From an uncultured Acidobacteriota bacterium (GTDB taxonomy: Bacteria > Acidobacteriota > Vicinamibacteria > Vicinamibacterales > UBA2999), in contig CADEDM010000023.1 in the NCBI GenBank assembly GCA_902826065.1, positions 1 through 40,636 of the forward strand: a DNA stretch of 40,636 nucleotides, in the 5' to 3' direction. Positions 4 through 15,570 of the stretch are shown piece by piece; the stretch's first letter is position 1; the number at the start of each line of letters is the position of its first letter. Made by a program: the position numbers and the translations under genes. A model generated the notes under the pieces. It saw only the letters and a program-made list of their open reading frames with translations. It had not been told where the DNA came from and did not search any database.

Positions 4-915
4 GTGGAACCCGCCGAGACGCGCGCCCACGAGGTCGAGCTCCGCCGGTTGCGTCACCGCTCGCGCGAGCGCGAGCGGGCCGGTGGCCTCGCGGCCGTGT
101 GGCGCCGGTTGATGCCATGGGTGACGTGGCGGCCCGAGTCACCCGATCCGCGCGTGCTGGGCGGCGCCGCCGTCGTCATCGCGGCGCTGGTCGCGATGGT
201 GTGGCGCAGCGACGCCCCGCCGGCCACGGCTGCGGATCGGCGCACGGTGACCCCGCGTGCGGTCGTGACCTCCCCGGATCGCGTGGAGACGGCGGCCAGC
301 GCGGCGGCCGCGCCGGCCGCTCGCGACGCGGCGACGGCCACGCCCGCCACGGCGCTCCCACCGGCGTTGGCACCGCCCCCGGCGACGTCGACGCTGTCGC
401 GTCCTGTCAGTCCGACGCGTCCGAGTGAGACGCCCACCCCTGTGGCGCCATCGCCTCCCCCCGCGGCCTCGCGCCCCGAGGTCGCGCCGGCGTCGGGAAC
501 CATCGTCGCGCCGCCGCCGTCCGCGTCCGCCAGTCCGGCGCCAGCCATCGAATCGCGCCGCCCGTCCGACACGGCCTCGAGCGCACCAGCGCCTCGGCCG
601 GCCGGCGGCCGCGCCACGCTCTACTCGGCCACGGACGCCAGCGTGACGCCGCCGGTGATGCGGCGTCAGCAATTGCCGTCGAACCTGCTCGAACCCACGG
701 CGGACGTGCCGGAAGACTGGCCGTTCCTCGAGATCGTCGTCGACGAACGCGGCGCCGTGGAAGCCGTGCGATTGCGGGCGAGGTCAGTGGCGCCAGGCCA
801 GACGATGTACCGGCACCGCATGCTGCTGGCCGCAGCGAAAGCATGGCAGTTCGAGCCGGCCACCAAGGACGGCCAGCCGGTGCGCTACCTGATGCGCGTG
901 CCGCTCGAGCCCTGA
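4..915 (+). CDS. TonB-like envelope protein, possibly 5'-partial
   Basis: Looks like a TonB-family energy-transducing or periplasm-spanning protein. A charged, Arg-rich cytoplasmic N-terminus (residues 1-50) precedes one membrane helix (about 51-67), a long Pro/Ala/Ser/Thr-rich spacer (about 70-205), and a C-terminal domain (about 205-303) ending in a TonB-like pattern: a V-DERGAVEAVRL strand, an AAAKAWQFEPATKDGQPV segment, then a final strand. That TonB_C pattern is typical of proteins that contact outer-membrane receptors. The GTG at position 4 is the first start visible, but the codon before it is open, so the true start may lie outside the window. A 45-50 residue basic cytoplasmic tail is longer than in classic TonB. 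Its stop overlaps the next start (TGATG). TonB-like architecture is seen; the partner is unknown. Confidence 0.65.
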   Translation: MEPAETRAHEVELRRLRHRSRERERAGGLAAVWRRLMPWVTWRPESPDPRVLGGAAVVIAALVAMVWRSDAPPATAADRRTVTPRAVVTSPDRVETAASAAAAPAARDAATATPATALPPALAPPPATSTLSRPVSPTRPSETPTPVAPSPPPAASRPEVAPASGTIVAPPPSASASPAPAIESRRPSDTASSAPAPRPAGGRATLYSATDASVTPPVMRRQQLPSNLLEPTADVPEDWPFLEIVVDERGAVEAVRLRARSVAPGQTMYRHRMLLAAAKAWQFEPATKDGQPVRYLMRVPLEP

Positions 916-1343
916 TGGCGGCACGGCCGCACTTCCTCGACGCCGTCGTCGCCTCGACCGCCCCGTTCACGCTGCGCCTGCGTCGCACCGGCGCGCCCCT
1001 GGCGCGGGCGCGGTTGGCGGGCTCGAGTACGGCCCGGCGTCGCGGCCTGCTGGGGCGGGAGGCCCTCGACACCGACGAAGGCCTCGTGATCGCGCCGACC
1101 CAGGGCATCCACACCTTCGGCATGCGCTTCGCGCTCGACGTCGTCTTCGTGGATCGCGCCGGCGTCGTCGTCCGGCTCGCGGCCGCCGTGCCGCCGCGGC
1201 GGATCCGCCTCGCCTGGAGGGCCTTTGCGGCTATCGAGATCGGCGCCGGCCGCGCCGCCGCCGCCGGTGTGGTTCCCGGGGACCGGCTGGACGCCGCCCC
1301 GCTCCCGCCCGACGCGCCCGGTTTCGGGCCGGCCGAAGTCTAG
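915..1343 (+). CDS. DUF192 family protein
   Basis: A 142-residue protein of the DUF192 family. Characteristic segments are visible: ARARLAGSSTARRRGLLGRE, then GLVIAPTQGIHTFGMRF, then LDVVFVDRAGVVV, matching the family core RxxGLMxR...WLxPxxxIHTFGMRFPIDVVFLD. The molecular role of the family is not established; it is often found next to secretion or pilus genes. The ATG at 915 overlaps the upstream stop by one base, so it is translationally coupled to the TonB-like gene. No convincing signal peptide is seen. It directly precedes the Tad locus but is separated from it by about 250 bp. Confidence 0.8.
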   Translation: MAARPHFLDAVVASTAPFTLRLRRTGAPLARARLAGSSTARRRGLLGREALDTDEGLVIAPTQGIHTFGMRFALDVVFVDRAGVVVRLAAAVPPRRIRLAWRAFAAIEIGAGRAAAAGVVPGDRLDAAPLPPDAPGFGPAEV

Positions 1344-1590
1344 CCCTCAGAGGACTTTTTTCCAGCCCTGCCACACTGTTGAGGTCCGTGTGCCGAATCG
1401 TGAATGACCGCCTCTCGATAGAGCGATAATGCGGTCCACGGCAGCTGCAGCCGATGCCGCTAACCTTCAGCGGCACGGGAAGTTCGCAAGTTGTGAGCGT
1501 GACCGCAGCGTCAGGAGGACCGCACGTGTGCAATCGGGACACCGTCGGTCGGAAGTCCGTAGTTTTCACCCGATTTTCTGGAGTGGTGAC
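1344..1590 (+). promoter_or_regulatory. Tad/Flp locus leader and probable promoter region
   Basis: A 247-bp non-coding stretch, the only sizeable gap before the Tad genes, so the locus promoter should lie here. A GATAAT hexamer at 1425-1430 resembles a -10 box, but no good -35 sits 16-18 bp upstream. A small hairpin (GCCGCT at 1456-1461 pairing with AGCGGC at 1469-1474) follows in the putative leader. A run of six T at 1356-1361 lies just after the DUF192 stop, but no stem sits directly in front of it, so I do not call a terminator. No known riboswitch is recognised. Confidence 0.35.
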
Positions 1591-1770
1591 ATGACCAACC
1601 TGCTTCGCCGTCTCGTGCGCGATGAGTCCGGCCAGGACATCATCGAGTACGCCCTGCTCGCCGCCGGCATCTCGGTGTTGATCATCCCGATCGCGAACCT
1701 GATTGGGCCGGCGCTGACGCGGGCCTACCAGACGATCAACAGCCAAGTCGGCCTCATCCCGGGCTCATAG
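1591..1770 (+). CDS. flp: Flp-type pilin (major pilin candidate)
   Basis: A 59-residue Flp/Fap prepilin, the structural subunit of a type IVc (Tad) pilus. The leader MTNLLRRLVRDESG ends in Gly14, followed by QDIIEYALL, which carries the conserved Glu at +5 and Tyr at +6 of the class III cleavage motif. A hydrophobic helix follows (about 20-42). Cleavage after Gly14 by the neighbouring prepilin peptidase is expected. The start at 1591 is chosen over an upstream in-frame ATG (1429) because GGAG at 1580-1583 is well spaced and the leader then has normal length. It is the first gene of the locus and lies 12 bp before a second pilin. Confidence 0.93.
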   Translation: MTNLLRRLVRDESGQDIIEYALLAAGISVLIIPIANLIGPALTRAYQTINSQVGLIPGS

Positions 1771-1782
1771 CCTCGTTCCTCG

Positions 1783-2010
1783 ATGCTAGTGACGAACGCG
1801 TGGCCGGCGATCGTTCGGGCGATCGCCACGCTCGTCGACGACGAACGCGGCCAGGATCTGATCGAGTACGCGCTGCTCACCTCGGCGGTGGGCGTCGCGG
1901 GCATCGCGACCTGGCCGATGATCGCCACCTCGATCGCCACGGCCTATCGCGCCCTCGACCAGAACACGCAGTCGCTCTGGCAGCCGCCGCCACCGGGCGG
2001 CGGGTCATGA
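1783..2010 (+). CDS. flp: Second Flp-type pilin with proline/glycine tail
   Basis: A second Flp prepilin of 75 residues. The cleavage motif is ERG followed by QDLIEYALL (Gly23/Gln24, Glu28 at +5, Tyr29 at +6), then a hydrophobic helix (about 29-57). It differs from the first pilin in a longer N-terminal leader and a C-terminal tail ending WQPPPPGGGS, unusual for Flp, which may give a distinct surface or tip role (inference). Its TGA overlaps the ATG of the peptidase gene (ATGA at 2007-2010), so the two are coupled. Confidence 0.9.
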   Translation: MLVTNAWPAIVRAIATLVDDERGQDLIEYALLTSAVGVAGIATWPMIATSIATAYRALDQNTQSLWQPPPPGGGS

Positions 2011-2519
2011 CCGTGTTCGACGCGGGTGCCGTCGTGCTCGCCACGGCCGCGTGCGTGACCGACATCAGCGCCGCGCGCATCCCGAATACCGTGACGCTGA
2101 CTGGCGTCATCGCCGGACTGGTGGCGCACGGCGCGTTGCCGCAGGGTCTGGGACTCGCCGCCAGTGCCTCCGGCGCGGTGGCTGGCCTTGCGGTGTTCCT
2201 CCCGTTTTTTGCGCTTGGAGGAATGGGAGGCGGCGACGTGAAGCTGATGGCAGCGCTCGGGGCGTGGCTGGGATGGCCGGCCATCCTCGCAACCGCGCTG
2301 GCGGTGGCCATCGCCGGCGGCGTGCTGGCGCTGATCGTGGCGCTGTCGCGCGGTTATCTCGGACAGGCGTTCGGCAACGTGTGGCGCCTGCTGCGGTTCT
2401 GGAGCGTCGCGGGCGTGCGACCGGAGCCGTCGCTCACCCTCGAACACGGACGCGGGCCGCGCCTGCCGTACGCGGTACCGATCCTGCTGGGTCTGCTGGT
2501 GACGCTATGGCGCCGATGA
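2007..2519 (+). CDS. cpaA: Prepilin peptidase, A24 family (CpaA/TadV)
   Basis: An aspartic membrane peptidase that removes the leader of Flp pilins and TadE-like pseudopilins at the inner membrane. The 170-residue length fits the short CpaA/TadV form, which lacks the methyltransferase domain of PilD. Both catalytic aspartates are visible: Asp19 in TDISAARIPN and Asp77 in the GGGDVKLM motif. Four to six hydrophobic segments are present. Its start overlaps the upstream pilin stop by four bases, and its stop lies within the start region of the TadE gene, a tight coupling of peptidase with its substrates. Confidence 0.93.
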   Translation: MTVFDAGAVVLATAACVTDISAARIPNTVTLTGVIAGLVAHGALPQGLGLAASASGAVAGLAVFLPFFALGGMGGGDVKLMAALGAWLGWPAILATALAVAIAGGVLALIVALSRGYLGQAFGNVWRLLRFWSVAGVRPEPSLTLEHGRGPRLPYAVPILLGLLVTLWRR

Positions 2520-2953
2520 CGATCGCCGCGCGATGGAAGAGCGAACGGGGCGCCGAGCTGATCGAGATGGCGGTCGCGCTGCCCCTGCTGCTGCTGATCG
2601 TGATGGGCGTCGTCGACTTCGGCTTCCTGTTCCAACGCTATCTGGTGCTGACGAACGCCGCGATCGAGGGGGCTCGTGTGGGCGTGCTGCCGGGCTATTC
2701 GCTCGGCGACGCGCAGAGCCGCGCCGTCGCCTACGCGCAAGCCGGTGGCGTTCCCGGTGTCGTCAACGCCGCGGCCACCGCGATCTCCCTTCCCGGCGGG
2801 GGCGGCAGCGGCTCGTGGCCCGGGATGCGCGTCGTCGTGACGCACACCTACCAGTATCAGTACATCGGCCCGATCGCCGGGCTGTTCGGTGGTTCCTTCA
2901 GTTCCGTCACGCTGACCGCGCAGTCCACCGTGCGACGGCAGCTGGGCTCGTAA
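2507..2953 (+). CDS. tadE: TadE-like pseudopilin
   Basis: A 148-residue minor pilin of the TadE family. The N-terminal motif ERG followed by AELIEMAVALPLLLL has Glu at +5 after the expected cleavage at Gly15, then a hydrophobic helix (about 21-42) and the DFGFLFQRY... segment typical of TadE. The remainder is periplasmic and includes a GGGGSG loop. Two starts are possible: ATG at 2507 or ATG at 2516; the latter overlaps the upstream TGA and would be translationally coupled. No separate TadF-like gene follows; the second TadE/F-type partner appears to be the TadG-like protein at 5266. Confidence 0.88.
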   Translation: MAPMTIAARWKSERGAELIEMAVALPLLLLIVMGVVDFGFLFQRYLVLTNAAIEGARVGVLPGYSLGDAQSRAVAYAQAGGVPGVVNAAATAISLPGGGGSGSWPGMRVVVTHTYQYQYIGPIAGLFGGSFSSVTLTAQSTVRRQLGS

Positions 2954-2978
2954 GTTCCGCGCCGAGGCACCCGCCAAC

Positions 2979-3836
2979 ATGTCGCGCAGTACCCGCACCC
3001 TTCTCGTATTCGCGTTGTCGCTGGTCGTCGCCGGCGCCTTCAGCGCCCTCGTCTTCCAGGCCGCCCGCCGCGCGCCGTCCTCGGCCGAGCCGACGACGAC
3101 ACCGGTCGCCGTCGCGACCCGCGCCCTGCCCATCGGCGCGAAAATCTCGGCGGGCGACGTCAAGCTCGTGGAATGGCCGCTGTCCAGTCCGATCGCGGGC
3201 GCCGTCACGTCGATCGACGCCGCGGTGAACCGCGGCCTGCTCGCCGCGGTCGTCGCCAACGAGCCGCTCACCTCGACGAAGCTCGCCGCGCTGGGCGCCG
3301 GCGCTGGCCTGCCGCCGATGATCACCGAGGGCATGCGGGCGATCTCGGTGAAGGTCGACGAAGTCGTCGGCGTGGCCGGCTTCGCCGTGCCGGGTGCGCA
3401 TGTCGACGTCGTCGTCAGCATCACCCAACGCGAGCAGAGCGTGGCCCGCGTCGTCGTCAGCAACGTCGAAGTGCTGGCCTCGGGCACCCGCACCGAGCAG
3501 GCGCGTGCGGATGCGACGTCGTCCGCGGATTCGGTCGTGACGCTGCTGGTCTCGCCGCCTGACGCCGAGCGCATCTCGCTGGCGTCGTCGGTGGGCCGCA
3601 TCACGCTGACCCTGCGCAATCCCCTCGACACCTCGGTGACCGACACCCGCGGCACGCCGGTGGCAGCGCTGCTCGGCGCGCCCGAACCGCCGCCGGCGGC
3701 GGCGCCGTCGCGCGCGCCGGTCCGGGTGGTGCGAGCGCCCGAGCCGGCGCCGGTCGTGGCTCCGCTTCCCCCGCCACCGCCATACACGGTCGAGACCATC
3801 CGCGCGGCCAAGCGCACGGCGGAGGTGGTCAAGTGA
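2979..3836 (+). CDS. cpaB: Flp pilus assembly protein CpaB/RcpC
   Basis: A periplasmic Tad component that works with the secretin, anchored by an N-terminal helix (about 8-28). A SAF-like domain is visible at about 43-105 (VAVATRALPIGAKISAGDVK...), followed by the RcpC/CpaB region with MRAISVKVDEVVGVAGFAVP and VDVVVS, the family hallmark. The last 60 residues are Pro/Ala-rich (about 222-262), then a short charged tail. At 285 residues it is of normal length. The GTG of the secretin gene overlaps its TGA (GTGA, 3833-3836). Confidence 0.92.
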   Translation: MSRSTRTLLVFALSLVVAGAFSALVFQAARRAPSSAEPTTTPVAVATRALPIGAKISAGDVKLVEWPLSSPIAGAVTSIDAAVNRGLLAAVVANEPLTSTKLAALGAGAGLPPMITEGMRAISVKVDEVVGVAGFAVPGAHVDVVVSITQREQSVARVVVSNVEVLASGTRTEQARADATSSADSVVTLLVSPPDAERISLASSVGRITLTLRNPLDTSVTDTRGTPVAALLGAPEPPPAAAPSRAPVRVVRAPEPAPVVAPLPPPPPYTVETIRAAKRTAEVVK

Positions 3837-5266
3837 ACCGCATCACCGTACGGGGTGCGGCGCTGGTCGGCGCCGTGGTGCTGGGGCTGGCGCCGCTCGG
3901 CGCGCAGACCGCGCCGCCCGGCGTCGTGCCGAACGAGATCCCCCAGCGGGTGCTGCTCACCGCCGGCCGTTCGACGGTGCTCACGACCGATTTCGACATC
4001 ACCCGCCTGGCGGTGACGAACCCCGCCGTCGCCGACGCGGTCGTGGTGAAGCCGCGCGAGGTGCTGGTCGACGGCAAGGGCTCGGGGACGGTGAGCCTGA
4101 TCGTGTGGGGCACCAGCGAGCGCAAGCACTACGACATCGTGGTCGACCCCGGCGTCACCAACCTGCAACAGAACTTCATGGCGCTCTTCCCCACCGAGGA
4201 CATCAACGTCGCCGTGACCGACGACGCCGTGATCCTGTCGGGCGCGGTGTCGAGCAACGACATCATGCTGCGCAGCGCCGAGCTCGCCCGCGCGGCGATG
4301 CCCAAGCACGCCGTGATCAACATGCTGCAGCTGCCCAGCGGCTCGCCCAGCAAGCAGGTGATGCTGCAGGTGCGCTTCGCCGAGGTCAACCGCAACGCGC
4401 TGCAGCAATCGGGCCTCACGCTCTTCTCGACGCGCGCCGACGCCACCGGCCGGGTCGGCACGCAGCAGTTCGCGGCGCCCGACTTCAACCGGCAGGGTGA
4501 CATCGACCTGCTGCAGTTCTCCGACTTCCTGAACATCTTCATGTTCAATCGCGACCAGGGCATCGGCGGCGTGTTGAAGGCGCTGCAGACACGCGGCTTC
4601 CTGCAGAGCCTGGCCGAGCCCAACCTGATCGCCTACAACGGCGAGGAGGCCAGCTTCCTCGCCGGCGGCGAAATCCCGATTCCGCTCGTCACGGGACTCG
4701 GTCAGGTCAACGTCCAGTACAAGGAGTTCGGCATCCGCCTCACGTTCCGCCCGACCATTGCCGGCGACGTGATCCGGTTGAAGCTCAAGCCCGAGGTCAG
4801 CACGCTCGACTTCACCAACGGCATCGTGCTCCAGGGCTTCCGCATTCCGGCGCTCAACACGCGGCGCGCCGAGACCGACGTGGAACTGCGCGACGGGCAG
4901 TCGTTCGCCATCGCCGGACTGCTCAACAACCTCACGCAGACGGATCGGCAGTCGGTGCCGCTCCTCAGCCGCCTGCCGATCATCGGCACGCTGTTCAAGA
5001 GCCGTTCGCTGCGCGCCGATCAGACCGAGCTCATGGTGCTGGTCACGCCGCGCCTCGTACGCGCGCTCGACCCCGACGAAGTGCCGGCGATGCCGGTGCG
5101 GCCAGGCGCCTTCCTGAATCCGTCCGACGACGAGAACAAGAGCGTGCCCGGCACCGAGCCCGACGAGACGACGACACCGGGGCTCGGCCCCACGCCGCCG
5201 CGACGACCGCCGCCGCCGGGCACGGTGAAGCCGCCCCGACCGCCAGGAGGCGGACCACCCCGCTGA
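3833..5266 (+). CDS. cpaC: Tad pilus secretin CpaC/RcpA
   Basis: The outer-membrane channel through which the Flp pilus leaves. After a signal peptide (about 1-24) come the pilus-type N-domain (about 40-115, with DITRLAVTNPAVADAVVV and a GSGTVSLIVWG strand), a BON domain (about 118-163, INVAVTDDAVILSGAVSS), and the secretin domain (about 170-410), which ends in the hallmark VPLLSRLPIIGTLFKS followed by ELMVLVTPRLV. The last 40 residues are rich in Pro and Gly. Start is GTG, coupled to cpaB; the stop overlaps the ATG of the next gene by one base (TGATG). Confidence 0.95.
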   Translation: MNRITVRGAALVGAVVLGLAPLGAQTAPPGVVPNEIPQRVLLTAGRSTVLTTDFDITRLAVTNPAVADAVVVKPREVLVDGKGSGTVSLIVWGTSERKHYDIVVDPGVTNLQQNFMALFPTEDINVAVTDDAVILSGAVSSNDIMLRSAELARAAMPKHAVINMLQLPSGSPSKQVMLQVRFAEVNRNALQQSGLTLFSTRADATGRVGTQQFAAPDFNRQGDIDLLQFSDFLNIFMFNRDQGIGGVLKALQTRGFLQSLAEPNLIAYNGEEASFLAGGEIPIPLVTGLGQVNVQYKEFGIRLTFRPTIAGDVIRLKLKPEVSTLDFTNGIVLQGFRIPALNTRRAETDVELRDGQSFAIAGLLNNLTQTDRQSVPLLSRLPIIGTLFKSRSLRADQTELMVLVTPRLVRALDPDEVPAMPVRPGAFLNPSDDENKSVPGTEPDETTTPGLGPTPPRRPPPPGTVKPPRPPGGGPPR

Positions 5267-6540
5267 TGTCCGCTCCGGCCGCATCCCCCCAGAGTGCCGG
5301 CCCGCGCCACCGCGGGAGGGGTGTGCCCGCGCGGCAGTGTGAGCGCGGCGCGATTCTGGTGCAGACCGCAGTGATGCTGGTTGGCCTCACGGCACTCAGC
5401 GCGTTCGTCGTTGACTATGGCGTGCTGTGGACGGCCCGCCGTCAGGCGCAGAACGCGGCCGACGCGGCGGCGATGGCGGCCGCGATGTCCCTGGCGTTCG
5501 ACGTCCCGGGCGATCAGGCGCGGGCGCGCACCAATGCCGCCACCGCCGTGGCCAACAACCCGGTGTGGGGCGCGGTCGTGCCCCTGGGGCCCGGCGACGT
5601 GACCTTCCCGGGCTGCCCGGCCGGGTCGATCGGCAGCGGCACGTGCGTGCGGGTCCAGGTGCAGCGCACCGCCGCCAACAACGCCGCGCTGCCGACGATC
5701 TTCGGGCCGCTGGTGGGTGTCAACGAGCAGGGCGTGCGGGCCACGGCCACGGCGCAGGTGCTCTACGGCGACGCGACCGACTGCGTGAAACCGCTGGCCC
5801 TGCCCGATCGGTGGGACGAGCTGCGCAACAACGTCGGGCCACCGACCTGGGAGATGAACGACACCTTCGAGCGCTACGCGCCGAATGGCACGCTGTTGTC
5901 GCCGCCGGTCGACTTCTACCAGCCGCCGACACCATTCCCAGGCCCGAACGGCACCGGCTTCTCGCGTGATGTCCACTACGCGCGGCAGTTCGAGATGCAC
6001 CCCTCGCCGAACCCGCTGGTCGACCTCGCCGGCGGCGAGCGCCTCGTCCCGCTGCAGATCGATGGCCCCGGGCCGGGCGCGTTCCTGAACACCTTCACGT
6101 CGTGCTCTCCGCGCGTGGTACGGCCCGGCGATCGCTTCGACGTCGAGTTGTCCAACGTCAACGGCGAGACCGGAGAGGCGCTCAGCGAGCTGATCGGCCG
6201 CGACCCCGGCGCGACGTGGAACACGTCGCTCTACGGCGGCCGCGGCGGCGTGTCCGGCGGGTGCATGGCCTCGGGCGCATGCTGCGCCTCCGGCACCTGC
6301 ACCGGGCTGAGTCCGCGCATCGTCGCCATGCCCGTCTACAATCCCGATCTCTGGGATCAGAACCCGCCGGACCGCGCCACCGCCGTCGTGACGCGGATTG
6401 TCGGGTTCTTCATCGAGCGCTACTCGCCGGCCAACAACGAGGTCATCGGCCGGTTGATGGTCTATCCGGCGCTGCCGCGAAGCTCGATGACGGCCAGTCC
6501 GTCGTCGTCGTTCGTGTCGAGCGTCACGCTGGTCAGGTAA
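5266..6540 (+). CDS. tadG: TadG-like protein with pilin-like N-terminus
   Basis: A 424-residue protein of the TadG/TadE-like class. The N-terminus has ERG followed by AILVQTAVMLVGL and one membrane helix (about 29-50), then DYGVLWTARRQAQNAADAAA, the typical TadG segment. The large extracytoplasmic part carries several Cys, including a Cys cluster around residues 330-346 (CMASGACCASGTC), which suggests disulfides. The pilin-like site has Gln at +5 instead of Glu, so processing by CpaA is uncertain. TadG proteins are thought to help anchor or cap the pilus. It sits between the secretin and the CpaE gene, as in other Tad loci. Confidence 0.85.
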   Translation: MSAPAASPQSAGPRHRGRGVPARQCERGAILVQTAVMLVGLTALSAFVVDYGVLWTARRQAQNAADAAAMAAAMSLAFDVPGDQARARTNAATAVANNPVWGAVVPLGPGDVTFPGCPAGSIGSGTCVRVQVQRTAANNAALPTIFGPLVGVNEQGVRATATAQVLYGDATDCVKPLALPDRWDELRNNVGPPTWEMNDTFERYAPNGTLLSPPVDFYQPPTPFPGPNGTGFSRDVHYARQFEMHPSPNPLVDLAGGERLVPLQIDGPGPGAFLNTFTSCSPRVVRPGDRFDVELSNVNGETGEALSELIGRDPGATWNTSLYGGRGGVSGGCMASGACCASGTCTGLSPRIVAMPVYNPDLWDQNPPDRATAVVTRIVGFFIERYSPANNEVIGRLMVYPALPRSSMTASPSSSFVSSVTLVR

Positions 6541-6546
6541 CTCCCC

Positions 6547-7692
6547 GTGCAGCCTACCGTCACACTCCTCGGCGCCATCGAACGCGATCTCGCCGGCGCC
6601 ATGCGCGATCGCGGCTTCATCGTGAGCGACAGCGACCTCAACGTCGCCATCGCCAGCCACGTCGCCGGCACCAAGGGCCCGGACGTCTTCGTCATCGACA
6701 TCCGCGCGCTGTCGGCGTTGCCGCGCGAGATCGTCAGCCTGCGGCGCCACTTCCCGCAGTCGGGCATCGTCATCATCGCCAAGGCGCTCGATCCCACCTC
6801 GATGCTCGACGCGATGCGGATGGGCGTCAGCGAGTGGGTCGCCGAACCGGTCGTGCTCGACGACCTCGAGACCGCAATCCGGCGGATGGCCCGCCCCACG
6901 CTGGGCGCGGTGGCCGGCCGCGCCATCGCGGTGCTCGGCGGCAAGGGCGGCGTCGGCTGCACCACCGTGGCGGTGAACCTGGCGACGGCGCTCCATCGCG
7001 CCACGCGTGAAGCGACGCTGTTCGTCGACCTGCATACGGCCCACGGCGACGCCTCGGTGTTCCTGGGCGTCGAACCGCGCTTCTCGGTGCTCGACGCGCT
7101 CGAGAACATCCACCGGCTCGACGCGAGCTACATGAAGGGCCTGGTCACGCCGACGAAGGCCGGCATCGACCTGCTGGCGGCGGCCAACCGCCCGCAGCAC
7201 GGCGCCATCGACGCCTTGCGCGTGCGCGCGCTGATCGAGTTCGTCACGACCACGTATCCGTGGGTGGTGCTCGACTGCGCCCGCACCGACGGCACCCTGA
7301 TGGACGCCCTCGATGCCACCACCACCGTGCTCGTCGTCGCGAACCAGGAGCTGGCGACCCTGCGCAGCGCCAGCCGGCTCGCCGCGAGCACGCGGCAGCG
7401 CTGTGGCGTGCAGCGGGTGAAGCTGGCGATCAACCGCTACGACACCGAATCGGAGATCGGCCGCAAGGACGTGGAGCGCGTGATGGGCGGCGCCATCGCC
7501 TACACGTTCCCCAGCGACTACCGGGCCTCGGTGGCGGCGATCAACAAGGGGGAGCCCCTGATCCTCCAGGACCACTCGCGGCTGGCGGGCGCCTTCGAAG
7601 ACGTGGCGCGCGACATCGCGGGTCTGGGGCCGGCCTCGCGCGACGCGGCGCGCAGTGGCGGCTTCTTCGCGCGGCTCGGGGGCCGCCGCTGA
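6547..7692 (+). CDS. cpaE: CpaE/TadZ: receiver-like plus MinD-like ATPase
   Basis: Localisation ATPase of the Tad machine. Residues 1-115 form a receiver-like domain: VFVIDIRAL places an Asp (51) near the phospho-acceptor position, but the usual acidic pair at the N-terminus is missing. Residues about 125-370 form a ParA/MinD-type ATPase with a deviant Walker [11 protein letters not shown] (131-140), and VVLDCAR as Walker B region. In TadZ proteins such domains place the secretion complex at the cell pole. Start is GTG at 6547, six bases after the tadG stop. The C-terminus ends in a short basic tail. Confidence 0.92.
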
Positions 7693-7706
7693 GCGGAGTA
7701 TCGACG

Positions 7707-9032
7707 ATGGCACTCAGAGCCGAACGGCCCGGCGCCGGCGTGGACGTCCGCCAGGCGCATTACCAGGAGACGAAGGAGCGCGTGCACCGCGCGCTGCTCA
7801 ACCGTCTGAACCTCGACCGGCTGACGCGCGTCGGCCGCGCCGAGGCGGAGCCCGAGATCCGCAGCCTCATCGTCTCGCTGCTCGACACCGAGACGCGCGC
7901 GGTGCCGCTGAGCCTGTTCGAGCGCGAAGCGCTGATCACCGACGTCCTCAACGAGCTGTTCGGTCTCGGCCCGCTCGAGACGCTGCTCGCCGATCCGTCG
8001 ATCTCGGACATCCTCGTCAATCGCTTCGACTCGGTCTACGTCGAGCGCGAGGGCCGCCTCGAGCCGTGCCCGCTCGTCTTCAAGGACAACCAGCACCTGC
8101 TGCGCATCATCGAGCGCATCGTCAGTTCGGTGGGCCGCCGCATCGACGAGTCGAGCCCGATGGTGGACGCCCGCCTCGCCGACGGCTCCCGCGTCAACGC
8201 CGTGATTCCGCCGCTGGCGCTCGACGGTCCCCTGCTCTCGATCCGCCGGTTCCGCACCGACCGCCTCGGCGCGCGCGACCTCGTGGATCGCACGACGCTG
8301 ACCGGCCCGATGATGGAGTTCCTGAGCGCCGCGGTGGCGGCCCGGCTCAACATCATCGTCTCGGGCGGCACCGGCGCCGGCAAGACCACGTTCCTCAACG
8401 CGCTGTCGAGTTTCATCTCGGAGCGCGAGCGCATCGTCACCATCGAGGACGCCGCCGAACTGATGCTCCGGCAGCGCCACGTGGTGCGTCTCGAGACCCG
8501 CCCGCCGAACATCGAGGGCAAGGGCGCCGTGCAGCAGCGACAGCTGGTCATCAACGCCCTGCGCATGCGGCCCGATCGCATCGTCGTCGGCGAGGTGCGC
8601 GGCGAGGAAGCCCTCGACATGCTGCAGGCCATGAATACCGGGCACGAGGGCAGCCTGACGACCATCCACGCCAACAGCCCGCGCGACGCGCTGTACCGGC
8701 TCGACACCATGGTGGCGATGGCCAACCTCAACATCCCCGAGAAGGCGATCCGCCAGCAGGTGGCGTCGGCCATCCATCTCGTGGTGCAGCTGTCGCGCTT
8801 CTCCGACGGCCACCGCCGGGTCACCGCCATCACGGAGATCACCGGCATGGAGCAGGGGGTGGTGACCATGCAGGACATCTTCCTGTTCGAGCGCCACGGC
8901 GTCACCGCCGACGGGCACGTCACCGGGATGTTCCGCGCGACCGGCATCCGGCCCAAGTGCGCCCAGGCGCTGTCGACGGCCGGCTTCATGATGGCCGCCG
9001 ACATGTTCGAGCACCGCGTCGCCATCGCCTGA
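7707..9032 (+). CDS. cpaF: Tad secretion ATPase CpaF/TadA
   Basis: Hexameric secretion ATPase that powers pilus assembly at the inner membrane. The 441 residues contain an N-terminal region ([20 protein letters not shown], typical of CpaF), the Walker [10 protein letters not shown] near residues 220-228, an Asp box region, Walker B-like [12 protein letters not shown] near 290, and the His box [14 protein letters not shown] near 311. The ATG at 7707 has GGAG at 7695-7698 with good spacing; the reading frame is open further upstream but without a sensible start. Followed after seven bases by tadB. Confidence 0.96.
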
Positions 9033-9039
9033 GGACGTC

Positions 9040-9990
9040 ATGACGCTCGCCGTAGTGACCTTTGCGCTGTCGATCGCCGTGATGATGGGCCTGTACTGGG
9101 CGCTCATCGTGCGGCCGGAGGATCAGCGGTCGCGCGAGATCGCGCGCCGCGTCCAGCGCGTCGATCCCAAGCGGGATGCCGTCAAGTCGGTGACCGCCGA
9201 GCTCTCGACCGCGTCGGTCATCGACGCCTTGCTCGCCAGCAACATGAGCCTGGCCAGGGGCGTGCAGACGTTCCTCGGCGAAGCCGGCCTGAGCTGGACC
9301 GCGAGCGGGCTGTTGGTGCGCACCCTGCTTGCCGCCGCGGCAGGCCTCGTGGTCGGCGTGGTCGTGACCGGCCGCCCCCTCGGCGCCGTGCTGGCACCGC
9401 TGGCGGCCGCGGTGCCGGCGCTGTACGCGCGGCGGCGGCGCTCCGAGCGTCTGCGCATGTTCGAGGAGCAGTTCCCCGAGGCCATCGACCTCATCGCCCG
9501 CTCGCTCCGCGCCGGTCACACGTTCACCACCGGCCTGGGCATCGCCGCCGACGAGGTGCCGCCACCGGTCGGCCTCGAGTTCCGCCGCGTCCACGACGAG
9601 CAGAACTTCGGCATGGCGATGCCCGACGCCCTGCGCGACATGGCGCGACGGGTCCCGGTACTCGACGCGCGGTTCTTCGTGACGGCCGTGCTCACCCAGC
9701 GCGAAGCCGGCGGCAACCTCGCCGAGGTGCTCGACAACCTGTCGAGCGTGATGCGCGATCGGTTCAAGGTGAAGCGGCAGATCCGCGTGGTCTCGGCCCA
9801 CGGCCGCATCACGGCGTGGGTCCTGACCATGCTGCCGCCGGCCCTGGCGGCCATCCTCTACACGGTGTCCCCGCAGTTCATGCGGGTGCTGGTCGACGAT
9901 CCGCTGGGCGTGCGGATGATCCTGTTCGCGGTGGGGATGCAGGTCCTCGGCACGATCATCATCTCGCGGCTCGTGACGGTGGAGTACTGA
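9040..9990 (+). CDS. tadB: TadB inner-membrane platform protein
   Basis: Type II secretion F-domain platform protein of the Tad system, 316 residues. An N-terminal helix (about 3-23), a second hydrophobic pair (about 90-128), then the conserved cytoplasmic T2SSF segment FEEQFPEAIDLIARSLRAGH (about 145-165) through REAGGNLAEVLDNLS, and two C-terminal membrane helices (about 257-275 and 290-312). Together with TadC it transmits CpaF motion to the growing pilus. GAGGA just before the ATG at 9040 serves as ribosome-binding site; the stop overlaps the tadC start (TGATG). Confidence 0.94.
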   Translation: MTLAVVTFALSIAVMMGLYWALIVRPEDQRSREIARRVQRVDPKRDAVKSVTAELSTASVIDALLASNMSLARGVQTFLGEAGLSWTASGLLVRTLLAAAAGLVVGVVVTGRPLGAVLAPLAAAVPALYARRRRSERLRMFEEQFPEAIDLIARSLRAGHTFTTGLGIAADEVPPPVGLEFRRVHDEQNFGMAMPDALRDMARRVPVLDARFFVTAVLTQREAGGNLAEVLDNLSSVMRDRFKVKRQIRVVSAHGRITAWVLTMLPPALAAILYTVSPQFMRVLVDDPLGVRMILFAVGMQVLGTIIISRLVTVEY

Positions 9991-10901
9991 TGGACCTGCT
10001 GCTGCTCATCGGCGTGTTCCTCGCCGTGGCCGTGGCGACCGGCACGGCCGCCTGGTATTTCACCGAGCCCGACCTGACGCGGCAGCGCCTGACCGCGGTC
10101 GTCGCCGGCACACTGCCGCTGCCGAACCGCCGTGAGTCGGTGCTGTCAGAGGCTCCCAGCCAGCTGGCGCGACGCGTGCGTTCGTTCGTCCCGAAGTCGC
10201 CGCAGAACATGAACCACATCCAGCGGATGATGGCCAGCGCCGGCTACCACGGCGAGTGGCCGGCCATCCTGTTCGCGGCGGTGCAGGTGGCGCTGCCGCT
10301 GGTGGTGTTCGTGACGGTGCTGGCGTGGCTGCGCACCGGCAACGGCGTGCTGTTCGGCGCCATCGGCGCCGCGATCAGCTATTACGTGCCGATTCTGTGG
10401 CTGGGCCGCCGCATCGACGACCGGCGGCGTGAGATTCGCAACGGCCTGCCGGATGCCACCGACCTGCTCATCGTGTGCCTGGAGGCCGGGTCGGGCATCG
10501 ATCAGTCGATTGCCCGCGTGGCCGAGGAACTGGAGATCGCCTACCCCGCGCTGGCGCGCGAACTCGAGCTCATCGGATCGGAGACACGCGCCGGCAAGGC
10601 CCGCATGGAGGCGTTCAAGAACTTCGCGGAGCGCACCAAGGTCGACGACGTGCGCTCGCTGGTCGCGATGCTGGTGCAGACCGACCGCTTCGGCACGAGC
10701 CTCGGTCAGGCGCTGCGCACCCACGCTGACTCGTCGCGCACCAAGCGGCGGCAGCGGGCCGAGGAGCGCGCCGCGAAGCTGGGCGTGAAGCTGCTGTTCC
10801 CGCTTGTGTTCTGTTTGTTCCCGGCGTTTTTCACCGTCGTGCTGGGCCCGGCGATGGTACAGATCTACCGGCAGTTCATTCAGGAGTTGGGCTCGAAGTA
10901 G
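9990..10901 (+). CDS. tadC: TadC inner-membrane platform protein
   Basis: Second T2SSF-type platform protein, 303 residues. N-terminal helix (about 2-23), a hydrophobic pair (about 90-130), the conserved block IRNGLPDATDLLIVCLEAG (about 148-166) and TDRFGTSLGQALRTHAD, then a C-terminal helix pair around KLLFPLVFCLFPAFFTVVLG. It is distinguished from TadB by this C-terminal pattern. The ATG at 9990 overlaps the tadB stop by one base, as expected for a stoichiometric partner. It ends the canonical Tad core; the next genes are accessory. Confidence 0.94.
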   Translation: MDLLLLIGVFLAVAVATGTAAWYFTEPDLTRQRLTAVVAGTLPLPNRRESVLSEAPSQLARRVRSFVPKSPQNMNHIQRMMASAGYHGEWPAILFAAVQVALPLVVFVTVLAWLRTGNGVLFGAIGAAISYYVPILWLGRRIDDRRREIRNGLPDATDLLIVCLEAGSGIDQSIARVAEELEIAYPALARELELIGSETRAGKARMEAFKNFAERTKVDDVRSLVAMLVQTDRFGTSLGQALRTHADSSRTKRRQRAEERAAKLGVKLLFPLVFCLFPAFFTVVLGPAMVQIYRQFIQELGSK

Positions 10902-10909
10902 TCGCCGCC

Positions 10910-11722
10910 ATGCAGGCACGGACCAACGCGGCGACAGGGAGGGATGAACGTGGAAACCTGGCAACTCATCATGTACGTGGTCGGCGCCATTCTCCTGCTC
11001 GCGTACTTGAAGCGGCGCAGCGATCGCCTCAGCCGGCACGAGTAACCCTGCTCGCCGCGACCCTGGCCGCGGCGGTCATGGGCGGTGCCTGCGCAGCCCG
11101 GGCGCCCGGCACCTGGGCCTCGCGGTTCATCGTCCCGGGCACGCCGGCCGTGGACCTGACGGCGCCGTCCGACGCGGACGCGCCGACGTGGACCGTGCCG
11201 GCAGCGCCCGTACCCGCGGCGCCAGTGGCGGCGCTGCGCGTGCCCGCCGCCGACACGCTCGAGGCCACAGCGCCCGTGTTGCGCGAGCGGCTGGCCATCC
11301 TGGCCCTGGCGCCGTCGCCTCGCGCCTACCTCGACGCCGCCGCAGCCTACCGCCTGTACGCCGTGCACGATCGCGCCTTCGATCTGATCCAGCAGGGCCT
11401 CGCGACCTTCCCGCACGATCCCGGCCTGCACGCGGCCGCCGCCGAGGCGTGGCGCGACTGGGGCTTGCCTGGCCGCGGGCTGCGCCATGCGCACCTGGCC
11501 GTCCGCTATGCGCCCGAATCGGCGGCCGCCCAGACGACGCTCGGGACCGTGCTGTGGGCTGTCGGCGCCGAGCGTGACGCCCTGCATGCGTTCGAGCGGG
11601 CGGCCGCCCTGGCGCCTGACGCCGACTACGCGCGCCACAATCGCTGCGTCGCCGCACGGGCCCTGGGCGCCGCCATGGTGGCGGGCTGTGCGCCGGCCGG
11701 GCGTGCGCCGGAGGGCCGATGA
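10910..11722 (+). CDS. TPR protein, TadD-like, start uncertain
   Basis: A protein with tetratricopeptide-like helices at about residues 120-250 (AYLDAAAAYRLYAVHDRAFD, then AAAEAWRDWGLPGRGLRHAH, then AAQTTLGTVLWAVGAERDAL), resembling the TadD lipoprotein class that helps assemble the secretin. A hydrophobic segment near residues 46-58 ends in GGACAARAPG, which could be a signal peptide or weak lipobox. The start is a problem: ATG 10910 gives a 45-residue basic leader overlapping the small ORF at 10950, while ATG 11078 removes the signal region. A non-ATG start near 11040-11050, coupled to the small ORF stop, would fit best but is unproven. Its stop overlaps the next ATG (ATGA). Confidence 0.6.
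   Translation: MQARTNAATGRDERGNLATHHVRGRRHSPARVLEAAQRSPQPARVTLLAATLAAAVMGGACAARAPGTWASRFIVPGTPAVDLTAPSDADAPTWTVPAAPVPAAPVAALRVPAADTLEATAPVLRERLAILALAPSPRAYLDAAAAYRLYAVHDRAFDLIQQGLATFPHDPGLHAAAAEAWRDWGLPGRGLRHAHLAVRYAPESAAAQTTLGTVLWAVGAERDALHAFERAAALAPDADYARHNRCVAARALGAAMVAGCAPAGRAPEGR
10950..11045 (+). CDS. Small single-pass membrane protein ORF (31 aa)
   Basis: A tiny ORF in the gap after tadC: METWQLIMYVVGAILLLAYL followed by KRRSDRLSRHE. A single hydrophobic helix (about 4-20) is followed by a strongly basic tail, the pattern of a small inner-membrane protein with its C-terminus in the cytoplasm. The GTG at 10950 has AGGGAGG at 10936-10942 with seven bases of spacing; an in-frame ATG at 10944 is also possible but too close to that site. 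It overlaps, in another frame, the 5' part of the TPR reading frame. Function unknown; location suggests a Tad accessory subunit (inference). Confidence 0.5.
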   Translation: METWQLIMYVVGAILLLAYLKRRSDRLSRHE

Positions 11723-13035
11723 CGCCCCCCGAGACCGTGGTACGCCGCCCCGAAGTGCCGCGAGCGCCGACCACGGTCGAAGAGACCGGTCTGTCGTTCG
11801 ATCTGCTGCAGCAACTCGTGCTGAAGACCTTGCACGTCAGAGGCGAGCAGAGCGCCGCAGCGCTGAGCCAACGGCTCGGCGTCGTGCACTCGGTGCTGGA
11901 GCCGGTGCTCCATCACATGAAGCAGTCGTACCTGTCGGAGGTGTGGGGCGGCGGCACGCTGGGCGGCCCCTCGTACGTCTACCGGGTGACGCAGGCCGGC
12001 CGTGAGCGCGCTCTCATGGCCCTGTCGCAGAGCCAGTACATCGGCACGGCGCCGGTGCCGTTCCCGCAGTACGCGCAGTACATGCACGACTACGCGCGCC
12101 TGGCGCCGCTGGTCGTCACGCGGACCACCGTCGAGCAGGCCTTCGCGCATCTCGTCCTCAGCCGGCGCGTCCTCGATCAGCTCGGGCCCGCGGTCAATGG
12201 CGGGCATTCGCTGTTCGTCTACGGCCCGCCGGGCAACGGCAAGACCGTGATTTCGCAGGCCATCGCGCACCTGCTCACCGGCGACGTCGCGATTCCGCAC
12301 GCCCTCGATTTCGATGGCCACCTGGTGCAGGTCTTCGATCCCGCCGTGCACGAACCCACCGGCGTCGGCGCGTCGGCCTCGCTCGACCTCGGCCAGGTCG
12401 ATGACGCCCGCTGGATCCGCTGCCGCCGTCCGCTCGTGACGGTCGGCGGCGAGCTGACGCTGTCGTCGCTCGAACTCGCCTACAGCCCGAACTCGCGGCT
12501 CTACCAGGCGCCGATCCAGCTCCTCGCCAACGGCGGCGTGCTGGTCATCGACGACTTCGGGCGGCAGCGCTGCTCGGTCGTCGATCTGCTGAATCGCTGG
12601 ATCACGCCGCTGGAGAGCCGCGTCGATTACCTGACGCTGCAGTCGGGGCAGAAGATGCCGGTGCCGTTCGTGGTGCTCGTGGTGTTCGCCACCAACATCG
12701 AGCCTGCCGACCTCGTCGACGAGGCCTTCCTGCGCCGCATCCACTACAAGGTCTACGCCGAGAACCCGACGACGGCCGACTTCAAGCGGATCTTCGAGCG
12801 CTGCTGCCGCGATCGCGGCCTCGGCTACGACGACGCCGCCGTGGATCGGCTCGTCAGCGACTACTTCAGGCGCCGCGGCATCGCGCTGCGCGGCTGCTAC
12901 CCCCGCGACTTGCTCGAGCATGCGCTGGCCATCGCCGACTACAAGGGCGAGCCGCGCACGCTGTCCTACGAGCGGCTGGTCGACGCCTGCGCCAGCTACT
13001 TCCTCGACGACCAGACCGGCGGAGCGCGCGCGTGA
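11719..13035 (+). CDS. AAA+ ATPase with N-terminal winged-helix-like region
   Basis: A 438-residue AAA+ ATPase. Residues about 25-100 look like a winged-helix DNA- or protein-binding fold (LLQQLVLKTLHVRGEQSAAA, then LSQRLGVVHSVLEPVLHHMK, then a YVYRVTQAGRERAL wing). The ATPase core has Walker A GPPGNGKT (about 169-176), Walker B VLVIDDFG (about 274-281) and sensor 1 VFATN (about 321-325). The segment DEAFLRRIHYKVY may supply the arginine finger. A C-terminal helical lid follows. It is coupled by ATGA and GTGA overlaps to the TPR gene before and the VWA gene after, recalling MoxR-type AAA+/VWA pairs. Likely an unfoldase or remodeller serving the Tad system (inference). Confidence 0.8.
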   Translation: MTPPETVVRRPEVPRAPTTVEETGLSFDLLQQLVLKTLHVRGEQSAAALSQRLGVVHSVLEPVLHHMKQSYLSEVWGGGTLGGPSYVYRVTQAGRERALMALSQSQYIGTAPVPFPQYAQYMHDYARLAPLVVTRTTVEQAFAHLVLSRRVLDQLGPAVNGGHSLFVYGPPGNGKTVISQAIAHLLTGDVAIPHALDFDGHLVQVFDPAVHEPTGVGASASLDLGQVDDARWIRCRRPLVTVGGELTLSSLELAYSPNSRLYQAPIQLLANGGVLVIDDFGRQRCSVVDLLNRWITPLESRVDYLTLQSGQKMPVPFVVLVVFATNIEPADLVDEAFLRRIHYKVYAENPTTADFKRIFERCCRDRGLGYDDAAVDRLVSDYFRRRGIALRGCYPRDLLEHALAIADYKGEPRTLSYERLVDACASYFLDDQTGGARA

Positions 13036-15002
13036 CACCGGTCTGCCGGTTCGCCTGCGCGGTGGCGCTGCTCCTGGCGGCCGTGCCGGCGCCCGTCGCG
13101 GCGGCGGCCCCTCCCACCGTGCGCATCACCTCCCCGCTGGGCCGCACCGGCGTGCCTGGCGTCATCCGCGTCGTCGCGCAAGTGACGACCGACGCCGACC
13201 GCGGCGTCGTGCCGGTGCACTTCTTCGTCGACGGTGTCTCGATCGGCGACGACACCGACGGTCCTCCCTACGTGGTCGAGTGGGAAGACGCGAATCCCTA
13301 CGAGCCGCGTGAGATCCGCGTCGACGTCGAGGACGGCGATGGCGGCGTGGTCAGTGATCGCGTGTCGCTGCCGGCGCTCGAGCTGCTCGAGGAGACCAGT
13401 GTCTCGTCGGTGCTCATCGAGGCCACCGTGGTCGACGAGCAGGGCCGCTACGTCTCCACGCTGGGCAAGGACGACTTCCACCTGCGCGAAGACGGCGTCG
13501 AGCACGCGCTCGACCTGGTGCAACTGCAGACGCTGCCCACGACCTTCACACTGCTCATCGACGCCAGCCAGAGCCTGCACCGGCGCATCGACATGGTGAA
13601 GGCGGCGGCGCGCCGGCTGGCGACCCGGTTGCGACCCGGGGACAAGGTGATCGTGGCGCCGTTCCGGACCACGGTGGAATCGACGACGGGCCCGACCGAC
13701 GACGCCGCTACCATCGGCGACGCCATCGCCGCCATCCGTGCCCGTGGCGGCACGGCGATCCTCGATGCGCTCGCCACGCTGCCCGAGCTCTTCAATCACG
13801 TCGAAGGCCGGCACGTCGTCGTGCTGCTGACCGACGGCTACGACGAGCAGAGCACCACGCCCTATGCCGAGGCGATGTCGGCGCTGCAGCGCCTGCAGGC
13901 GACGGTCTACGTGGTGGGCATCGGCGGCGTCGCCGGTATCTCGCTCAAGGGCGAGACGCTGCTGCGCAAGGTGGCGTCGCAGATGGGCGGCCGCGCCTTC
14001 TTCCCGATCCGCGAGGAGCAGTTGCCGGACGTGCATGCCGCGGTCGCCGCCGACGCCTACAACCGCTACATCATCAGCTACACGCCGGTGAAACAGGAGG
14101 CGGACGGCACGTTCCGGGCGATTGCGCTCACCACGCCGAAGCCGGAATATCGCGTCCGTGCCCGCGAGGGCTACTTCGCGCCGAAGCCGCCGCCGGTGAA
14201 GCCGACGCTGGAGTTCAGTGCCACCTACGCCGGCGGGCCGCGCTCGCTGGCCGCCGCCGACCTCGTGGTCGTCGAAGACGGCGTCGTCCAGCAGGTCGAG
14301 TCGTTCGAGGAAGCGGTGTCGCCGATCTCGATCGCCATGGTCGTCGACACCAGCGGCAGCATGCGCCGGGCGCTGCCAGCGGCCCAGGCGGCGGCCCGAT
14401 CGTTCGTGACGTCACTGCGGCCGACCGACCCGCTGTCGCTGGTGCGCTTCGCCGATCGCGTGGTCGTCGAGCACGAGTTCTCCGACAAGCGGGCGACGAC
14501 GCTCGAGGCCATCGACCGGCTGCAGGCCGTCGGCGGCACCGCGCTGTGGGACGCGCTGCACACCTCGATGCAGGCGCTGAAGCAACGCACCGGCCGGCGC
14601 GCCATCGTGCTGCTGTCGGATGGCCGCGACGAGAACAACCCCGGCACGGCTCCAGGCAGCGAGCATACGCTCGCCGAGGTGCTGGCCCTGGTGCGCGACA
14701 CCGACACGGTGGTCTATGCGATCGGGCTCGGCGCCAACGTCGACCGGCCGGCGCTCGAACACATCGCCGCGCTGTCTGGCGGCGCCGCGTCGTTCCCGGC
14801 CGACGTCGGCGAACTCGAAGGCGAGTACGGGCGCGTCGTCGAGGCGCTGCGACAGCGCTACGTCGTCGGCTACACCTCGACCAACACCAAACGCGACGGC
14901 GGCTGGCGGTCGGTGGTCATCGCCGCCAAAGCCGCCGGCGTCTCGATCCGCTCCGGCGGCGGCTACTTCGCGCCGCAGCGGGCCCTGCCGTTGCCGCAGT
15001 GA
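13032..15002 (+). CDS. Secreted protein with two tandem VWA domains
   Basis: A 656-residue protein: signal peptide (about 1-25), an Ig-like segment (about 28-110), then two VWA units. Unit 1 (about 170-380) has the MIDAS-like DASQS at residues 177-181; unit 2 (about 430-640) has a canonical DTSGS at 439-443. Each is preceded by a V-EDGV strand segment and followed by a YIISYTP or YVVGYTS strand and a GYFAP motif, so the protein looks internally duplicated. The arrangement matches the VWFA-related Acidobacterial class. GTG start overlaps the AAA+ stop (GTGA). VWA proteins in Tad loci have been linked to adhesion or surface display; its role here is inferred from position. Confidence 0.8.
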   Translation: MTPVCRFACAVALLLAAVPAPVAAAAPPTVRITSPLGRTGVPGVIRVVAQVTTDADRGVVPVHFFVDGVSIGDDTDGPPYVVEWEDANPYEPREIRVDVEDGDGGVVSDRVSLPALELLEETSVSSVLIEATVVDEQGRYVSTLGKDDFHLREDGVEHALDLVQLQTLPTTFTLLIDASQSLHRRIDMVKAAARRLATRLRPGDKVIVAPFRTTVESTTGPTDDAATIGDAIAAIRARGGTAILDALATLPELFNHVEGRHVVVLLTDGYDEQSTTPYAEAMSALQRLQATVYVVGIGGVAGISLKGETLLRKVASQMGGRAFFPIREEQLPDVHAAVAADAYNRYIISYTPVKQEADGTFRAIALTTPKPEYRVRAREGYFAPKPPPVKPTLEFSATYAGGPRSLAAADLVVVEDGVVQQVESFEEAVSPISIAMVVDTSGSMRRALPAAQAAARSFVTSLRPTDPLSLVRFADRVVVEHEFSDKRATTLEAIDRLQAVGGTALWDALHTSMQALKQRTGRRAIVLLSDGRDENNPGTAPGSEHTLAEVLALVRDTDTVVYAIGLGANVDRPALEHIAALSGGAASFPADVGELEGEYGRVVEALRQRYVVGYTSTNTKRDGGWRSVVIAAKAAGVSIRSGGGYFAPQRALPLPQ

Positions 15003-15018: not shown

Positions 15019-15570
15019 TCAGGGGCGGCTGTTCCTGACCAGCGTCAGGAACTCGGACCGGGTGCGCGCGTCGTCGTGGAACACGCCCAGCATGGCGCTC
15101 GTGACCGTGGTCGATGCCTGCTTCTCGACGCCGCGCATCGCCATGCAGAGGTGCGTGCCCTCGCAGACCACGGCGACGCCGAGCGGCTGCACCTGATCGC
15201 GAATCGTCTCGGCGATCTGGCTGGTCATCCGCTCCTGCAGTTGCAGCCGGCGCGCGAACATGTCGACGAGGCGTGGGATCTTGCTCAGCCCGATGACGCG
15301 GCCGTTGGGGATGTAGGCGACGTGGCAGGTCCCGAAGAACGGCAGCAGGTGGTGCTCACATAGACTGTAGAAGCCGATGTCACGCACGATCACCATCTCG
15401 TTGTAGTCGACCGAGAACAGGGCGCCGTTGACGATGTCTTCCACCTTCAGCCGATATCCGCTCGTGAGGTGCTCGAGCGATCGGGCGACGCGGCCAGGGG
15501 TCTTCAGCAGCCCTTCGCGCTGCGGGTCCTCGCCGAGTCCGATCAGCAGTTGCGCGATCAGATCCTGCAT
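15019..15570 (-). CDS. folE: GTP cyclohydrolase I (FolE)
   Basis: Catalyses GTP to 7,8-dihydroneopterin triphosphate, first step of folate (and tetrahydrobiopterin) synthesis. At 183 residues it has normal length. Seen: [20 protein letters not shown] at the start, [20 protein letters not shown] with Cys and His zinc/substrate ligands, and [17 protein letters not shown] with the second zinc Cys. The start at 15570 gives the usual MQDLI... N-terminus; the frame is open further upstream. A TACAAT hexamer lies six bases before the start, so the transcript could be leaderless. It is convergent with the VWA gene (16 bp apart) and its start codon shares bases with the divergent gene. Confidence 0.95.

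Follow-up and report, generated by a model that had tools for sequence, protein, structure and literature searches.

A winged-helix AAA+ ATPase accompanying one Tad pilus subtype in Vicinamibacterales

The window analysed here is a stretch of 40,636 nucleotides on contig CADEDM010000023.1 (our G000:C23) of an uncultured Acidobacteriota bacterium of the order Vicinamibacterales, whose genome comprises 5.6 Mb in 416 contigs. A complete Tad pilus locus (843-11722, assigned by hidden Markov model (HMM) matches) is followed on the same strand by a gene for a 438-aa AAA+ ATPase with an N-terminal winged helix-turn-helix (wHTH; 11719..13035, +) and by a gene for a 656-aa, predicted secreted protein with two VWA domains (13032..15002, +). 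Within the order, presence of the ATPase depends on one Tad subtype, recognized by its CpaF motor, and Tad-linked homologues recur in other phyla. We lean towards the reading that the protein is a dedicated, locus-encoded cytoplasmic remodelling ATPase of this subtype, to which the secreted VWA protein was recruited. A preliminary description of the stretch, made from its letters, had reported a Tad core followed by ATPase and VWA open reading frames (ORFs) joined by 4-bp overlaps. The ORFs, the full locus and both overlaps were confirmed; read from the DNA, the junction of the ATPase with the preceding TPR gene is ATGA (11719-11722) and that with the double-VWA gene is GTGA (13032-13035).

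Linkage of the ATPase to a Tad subtype

We surveyed 59 Vicinamibacterales-type genomes, consisting of the source genome and its relatives. The ATPase is present in 25 of them as 27 genes, two of which are fragments at contig ends. Each of the 27 is found downstream of TadC, or downstream of the remnant of TadB-TadC where the contig is cut. The CpaF proteins of this sample separate by identity: one group, from 27 loci in 24 genomes, reaches at least 64%, and the rest stay at or below 56%. The ATPase is present in 24 of 24 genomes that have a first-group CpaF and in 1 of the 35 that do not, where the contig begins inside TadB; among genomes holding other CpaF subtypes only, the count is 0 of 11. 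The association has a Fisher p of ~1e-15, uncorrected for the relatedness of the genomes. In G017 and in G043, a Tad locus of this subtype occurs twice, and each copy has one ATPase. The proposal in the preliminary description that the ATPase is a Tad accessory agrees with this placement beside Tad genes in 27/27 cases.

For the wider family, a scan of genome contigs with the single ATPase sequence gave no matches, and an alignment-based scan gave at least 574 confirmed relatives, of which the best 80 were read. Gene calls based on GC frame were unreliable in some high-GC loci, so neighbours were assigned by HMM matches. All-against-all clustering of neighbours put the Tad genes into a single cluster and was of limited use. 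In the Gemmatimonadota (the phylum of locus L174), 7 of 81 genomes have an ATPase homologue, and in six of these seven it ends a CpaB/CpaC-TadG-CpaE-CpaF-TadB-TadC operon. It likewise follows TadC in L172 and in L162, from a metagenome-assembled genome labelled Kuenenia. In five Chloroflexales loci (L110, L114, L125, L128 and L168), a CpaF homologue (539-558 bits) comes immediately after the ATPase in 5/5 cases, and no TadB or TadC was found near the pair in any of them. An ATPase that precedes CpaF without TadB/C nearby suggests CpaF as the common partner.

A tree of 131 ATPase proteins, made by a quick method with Shimodaira-Hasegawa-like approximate likelihood ratio (SH-aLRT) support only, places the five Chloroflexales proteins in one clade with support of 100. 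By neighbourhood, 49 of the proteins are Tad-linked, 5 are CpaF-linked, 63 are unlinked and 14 are undecidable; family-wide fractions of this kind, drawn from the best 80 of at least 574 relatives, are biased towards close relatives. The ATPase is beside Tad genes throughout the order, but with its 63 unlinked members the sampled family extends beyond Tad. The Tad label changes five times on the tree, with at least four of the changes forced by starred branches, compared with a mean of 37.5 for shuffled labels. This indicates that the Tad association has arisen or disappeared repeatedly; one of the Tad clades is large.

Several neighbourhoods within the family stand out. Homologues in the Myxococcota adjoin metabolic genes. 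In nine Chloroflexota loci (L109, L121, L126, L129, L138, L146, L148, L149 and L175) the ATPase follows tig-clpP-clpX on the same strand, with at least clpX seen in each, and this neighbourhood suggests a proteostasis-related activity. The contig of L175 is labelled Pleurocapsa minor, though its ATPase groups with those of Anaerolineae and shares their clp neighbourhood; the label is probably a binning error. In the ATPase clade that lacks the VWA gene, the wHTH-AAA+ gene has downstream of it, at 9 loci (L100:11102-12643 and relatives), one for a 514-aa AAA_22 (ExeA/GspA-like) ATPase. A deep-branching second lineage of Tad ATPases (L079:6335-9239 and L080:10858-13653) has, after the ATPase, a lytic transglycosylase (SLT), a protein of unknown kind and a TIGR03436-like protein with a single VWA domain.

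Motifs, fold and family of the ATPase

The ATPase gene was delineated from its ORF, a fold model and invariant residues. The protein consists of a winged helix (residues ~20-104), a conserved linker (Y107-x-G-x-x-P112-V) and an AAA+ region with Walker A GPPGNGKT (169-176), Walker B VIDDFGRQ (276-283), sensor-1 N326, arginines R339/R340 and a sensor-2 PRD at 395-397. Walker A, Walker B, sensor 1 and candidate arginine fingers, the general features of AAA+ proteins, are therefore all present. G169, K175, D278, D279, N326 and R339 are invariant across the 131 homologues. Because the Walker A lysine, both Walker B aspartates, the sensor-1 asparagine and R339 never vary, the enzyme should be catalytically active.

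An AlphaFold2 model from a 56-sequence alignment is confident, with a mean predicted local distance difference test (pLDDT) score of 91.9 and a predicted template modelling (pTM) score of 0.88. It comprises a winged helix (27-90), the linker, a helical lid and the AAA+ core, in which a beta-rich insertion precedes Walker B. The winged-helix-like N-terminus suspected earlier is resolved here into helices 27-41, 46-53 and 57-69 and a hairpin at 73-90. The recognition helix, 57-69, is not basic (on average 1.7 Lys/Arg against 1.8 Asp/Glu) and the domain as a whole is slightly acidic; both features favour contact with protein over contact with DNA. The nearest solved folds are 8p49 (Q8U0N8, an uncharacterised Pyrococcus protein; Z 17.6 over 290 residues) and Lon (Z 16), followed by ComM, sigma-54 activators, RuvB and NorQ, which are tied at Z 13.5-14.5. 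The NorQ match, at Z 13.5 over 218 residues, is tied with those to sigma-54 activators and RuvB. As modelled, the fold appears assignable to no single known AAA+ clade.

Searches against Pfam, NCBIfam and PADLOC gave no match to a curated family, and the Pfam matches are weak and mostly of P-loop size. Membership of a well-characterised family, which would have spoken against the preliminary description, was not seen. Among MoxR-type models, AAA_5 scores 22.7 bits (cut-off 22.0) and bpMoxR 17.0 bits (cut-off 27), both covering little beyond the P-loop, and AAA_3 is absent among the matches listed. The IetA anti-phage ATPase was considered and rejected: NF042959, the best NCBIfam match, reaches 30.2 bits against a cut-off of 510, over the P-loop only, and the PADLOC IetA model 34 bits. 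A sigma-54 activator, or bacterial enhancer-binding protein, was rejected as well, the GAFTGA loop being absent in all 131 sequences. No T2SSE (PF00437) match, the type of Tad and type IV pilus motors, was found in the ATPase; the Tad motor CpaF has its own gene at 7704-9032. In the open-access literature we found no description of such an ATPase in Tad loci. We consider the protein a member of an undescribed AAA+ family of the kind that would act as a ring.

The double-VWA protein and the surrounding Tad locus

The double-VWA protein contains an Ig-like Big_7 domain (28-87) and two TIGR03436/VWA domains (~122-384 and ~405-646), and it matches TIGR03436 twice (272.2 bits, cut-off 81.25). Both metal ion-dependent adhesion site (MIDAS) motifs are present and conserved (D177-A-S-Q-S and D439-T-S-G-S). 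Its genome has 17 TIGR03436 matches above the cut-off, two in this protein and 15 further ones, which makes it a member of a large family in its own organism; compared with other acidobacterial VWFA proteins of TIGR03436, it is distinguished by two copies in one protein and by a fixed place in the Tad operon. The N-terminus is hydrophobic and signal-like, a feature kept in 12 orthologues and clear in most; in the orthologues of L086 and L089 the N-terminal hydrophobic peak is no higher than the rest of the protein. Judged from these sequences, the protein is predicted to be secreted through a Sec-type signal. By inspection, no prepilin peptidase site or pilin-like N-terminus was seen in the 12 N-termini, which look Sec-like. 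The two VWA domains of the preliminary description are confirmed and its signal peptide is in line with these N-termini, from which ATPase and VWA protein are predicted to be separated by the membrane, as that description had placed them. A structural model from 3 sequences is of moderate quality (pLDDT 76, pTM 0.48), and the fold matches confirm the VWA domains only. They are to VWA proteins, including matrix proteins and the minor pilin PilB of Streptococcus sanguinis (7ba2).

Orthologues of this gene occur in 12 of the 59 genomes, each time beside the ATPase and Tad genes, so that the pair is not found mostly elsewhere. Leaving aside four duplicate loci, the window could be compared with 48 other distinct loci that have a Tad-linked ATPase; 11 of them have the gene, a count limited by some contigs that stop shortly after the ATPase. 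It is confined to one ATPase subclade, of which one member (L065) lacks it. The idea that ATPase and VWA protein form one module is not supported by this distribution. The double-VWA protein is a later, lineage-specific recruit to the operon in one Vicinamibacterales lineage, and is probably a surface or pilus-associated adhesin. Pilus-tip VWA proteins have precedents in Tad and related pili, namely CpaL of Caulobacter, PilB of S. sanguinis and PilY1 (PMC12607857). Like these, the window protein is an exported, MIDAS-bearing VWA protein encoded with a type IV-like pilus; it differs in that its Sec-type signal is followed by an Ig domain and two VWA domains, and neither a pilin-like domain nor a prepilin site was seen.

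The Tad locus itself lies entirely on the forward strand. It begins with a DUF192 (COG1430) protein (843..1343; 63.9 bits), a Flp pilin (1594..1770; PF04964, 34.5 bits, cut-off 32.2) and a second Flp-like pilin, DERGQDLIEYALL (1783..2010), which was recognized from its sequence and has no Pfam match. These are followed by the prepilin peptidase TadV/CpaA (2007..2519; Peptidase_A24) and, by HMM matches, TadE (2534..2953), RcpC/CpaB (2979..3836) and the secretin CpaC/RcpA (3833..5266). Next come a TadG/TadE-like pseudopilin (5266..6540; PF13400 Tad, 30.2 bits), a CpaE/TadZ-like ParA/MinD ATPase (6547..7692; HMM match), the motor ATPase CpaF/TadA (7704..9032; T2SSE, 206.8 bits), TadB (9040..9990; T2SSF, 74.6 bits) and TadC (9990..10901; T2SSF, 73.4 bits). 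CpaF, TadB, TadC, secretin, Flp and prepilin peptidase are thus all found together, as expected of a Tad pilus locus. A TPR protein in a TadD-like position (10910..11722), with an uncertain start codon, completes the locus, and a folE-like gene, so named from sequence alone, lies on the opposite strand at 15019-15789 beyond the double-VWA gene.

Between TadC and the TPR gene, conservation reveals a 33-aa microprotein with a single transmembrane segment, MNVETWQLIMYVVGAILLLAYLKRRSDRLSRHE (10944..11045, +). It is also present in 8 other distinct loci, all of the VWA-bearing ATPase clade, and the window and its nearest relatives differ almost exclusively at third codon positions. This conserved microprotein overlaps the first 45 codons of the TPR ORF in a different frame and so casts doubt on the start codon assigned to TPR at 10910. 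The microprotein lies outside the scope of the family searches. Of 52 Tad loci, 27 have a DUF192 gene in the vicinity of the ATPase, as against 0 of 77 non-Tad loci, and in Acidobacteriota and Gemmatimonadota such genes directly precede or follow Tad-linked ATPases (for example L174:9283-9642, L172:9589-9984 and L100:10714-11088). Where a close CpaF comes without the ATPase, a secreted protein follows TadC: it is repeat-rich in G031:C227, and at L195:5022-6695 it is large, with repeats that were likened by eye to those of SdrD/Cna.

Proposed role and alternative explanations

The window matches the canonical Tad/Flp machine (Caulobacter cpa, PMC13170226; CpaF motor, PMC12019362) in Flp, prepilin peptidase, TadE/G, CpaB, CpaC, CpaE, CpaF, TadB and TadC and in their conserved order. 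The in situ model of the Caulobacter machine has CpaF and CpaE as its only cytoplasmic ATPases (PMC13170226), to which the window adds the wHTH-AAA+ ATPase. We propose that this ATPase would form a ring at the cytoplasmic face of the Tad machine and act with the CpaF motor and the TadB/TadC platform, with the winged helix serving for protein contact and not DNA binding. Its task could be to assemble, recycle or switch the motor complex, or to handle a Tad client. Within the cytoplasmic machinery, CpaF is the most likely target of remodelling or regulation. A dedicated enzyme of the Tad machinery is the simplest reading because the ATPase is kept with the Tad core irrespective of the VWA gene, occurs once per locus and, in one clade, accompanies CpaF only.

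Several observations weigh against this reading. About half of the sampled family is found away from Tad genes (in Myxococcota, most Chloroflexota, Nitrospirota and Geobacteraceae), which implies that the core biochemical activity is not specific to Tad. G031:C227 encodes a 70%-identical CpaF with no ATPase within 1.7 kb after TadC, although G031 does carry the ATPase in its other Tad locus. The Caulobacter Tad machine was also modelled in situ with no such ATPase (PMC13170226). A stronger form of the proposal, which we regard as possible but on the improbable side, is that these loci represent an undescribed class of Tad system in which a third dedicated cytoplasmic ATPase remodels or resets CpaF as a separate disassembly or switching enzyme.

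The ATPase might instead regulate transcription of the Tad operon, its winged helix binding DNA and its AAA+ domain sensing a nucleotide or partner. An N-terminal winged helix and the presence of sigma-54 activators and RuvB among the structural neighbours would fit such a regulator, but we consider it unlikely given a wHTH that is not basic in its recognition helix or as a whole, the lack of GAFTGA in any of the 131 homologues and a gene position near the end of a long co-directional operon. Less likely again is a role in pilus retraction, with the protein as an auxiliary motor or switch; it would then be a second ATPase, one that takes apart or resets either CpaF or the filament. CpaF is indeed the sole Tad gene common to the Acidobacteriota and Gemmatimonadota loci and the Chloroflexales pair, but the ATPase has no PilT/VirB11-type domain.

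A further alternative takes the two genes as a MoxR-type AAA+/VWA pair: the ATPase would work on the VWA protein, perhaps on its precursor ahead of export, so that the Tad system could display it at the surface. As in RavA-ViaA, NorQ-NorD and GvpN-VWA, an AAA+ gene adjoins a VWA gene; the two overlap or are closely spaced across most of the lineage, the double-VWA gene always co-occurs with the ATPase, and the second ATPase lineage (L079, L080) has its single-VWA gene 3 kb downstream. In contrast to MoxR-type pairs, the VWA protein has a secretion-type N-terminus, the ATPase mostly lacks a VWA neighbour and has an extra N-terminal winged helix, and its match to MoxR models hardly extends past the P-loop region. 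No double-VWA gene was seen at 37 of the 48 other Tad-linked loci, some on contigs that end early, and the spacing reaches 265 bp in L087 and 1747 bp in L090. With its VWA protein secreted and absent from most loci, the pair was rejected as the leading interpretation, and we now consider it quite improbable; the double-VWA protein is probably not the partner of the ATPase. The nearest published parallel we found is in archaeal type IV pilus loci, which carry a vWA/MoxR-GvpN pair (PMC4858521). There too an AAA+ ATPase and a VWA gene are linked to a type IV filament locus, but the archaeal genes encode a GvpN-like ATPase and an ArnB-type VWA protein, whereas in the window the ATPase is of a different AAA+ family and the VWA protein a secreted one of TIGR03436. 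Least probable of all is a housekeeping or proteostasis AAA+ protein that simply neighbours Tad in some lineages: the breadth of the family, its unlinked members in Myxococcota and many Chloroflexota and the nine tig-clpP-clpX loci would suit it, but Vicinamibacterales genomes without this Tad subtype lack the ATPase, two genomes with two loci have one per locus, and Tad linkage recurs in several lineages of the tree.

Overall, the interpretation in the preliminary description is partly supported, and the comparison cautions against taking every AAA+ gene that adjoins a VWA gene for half of a MoxR-type pair. A Tad pilus normally operates with one bifunctional motor ATPase. How such a pilus both extends and retracts with a single motor ATPase is a standing question, for which the dedicated Tad ATPase proposed here would be a concrete candidate for motor control.

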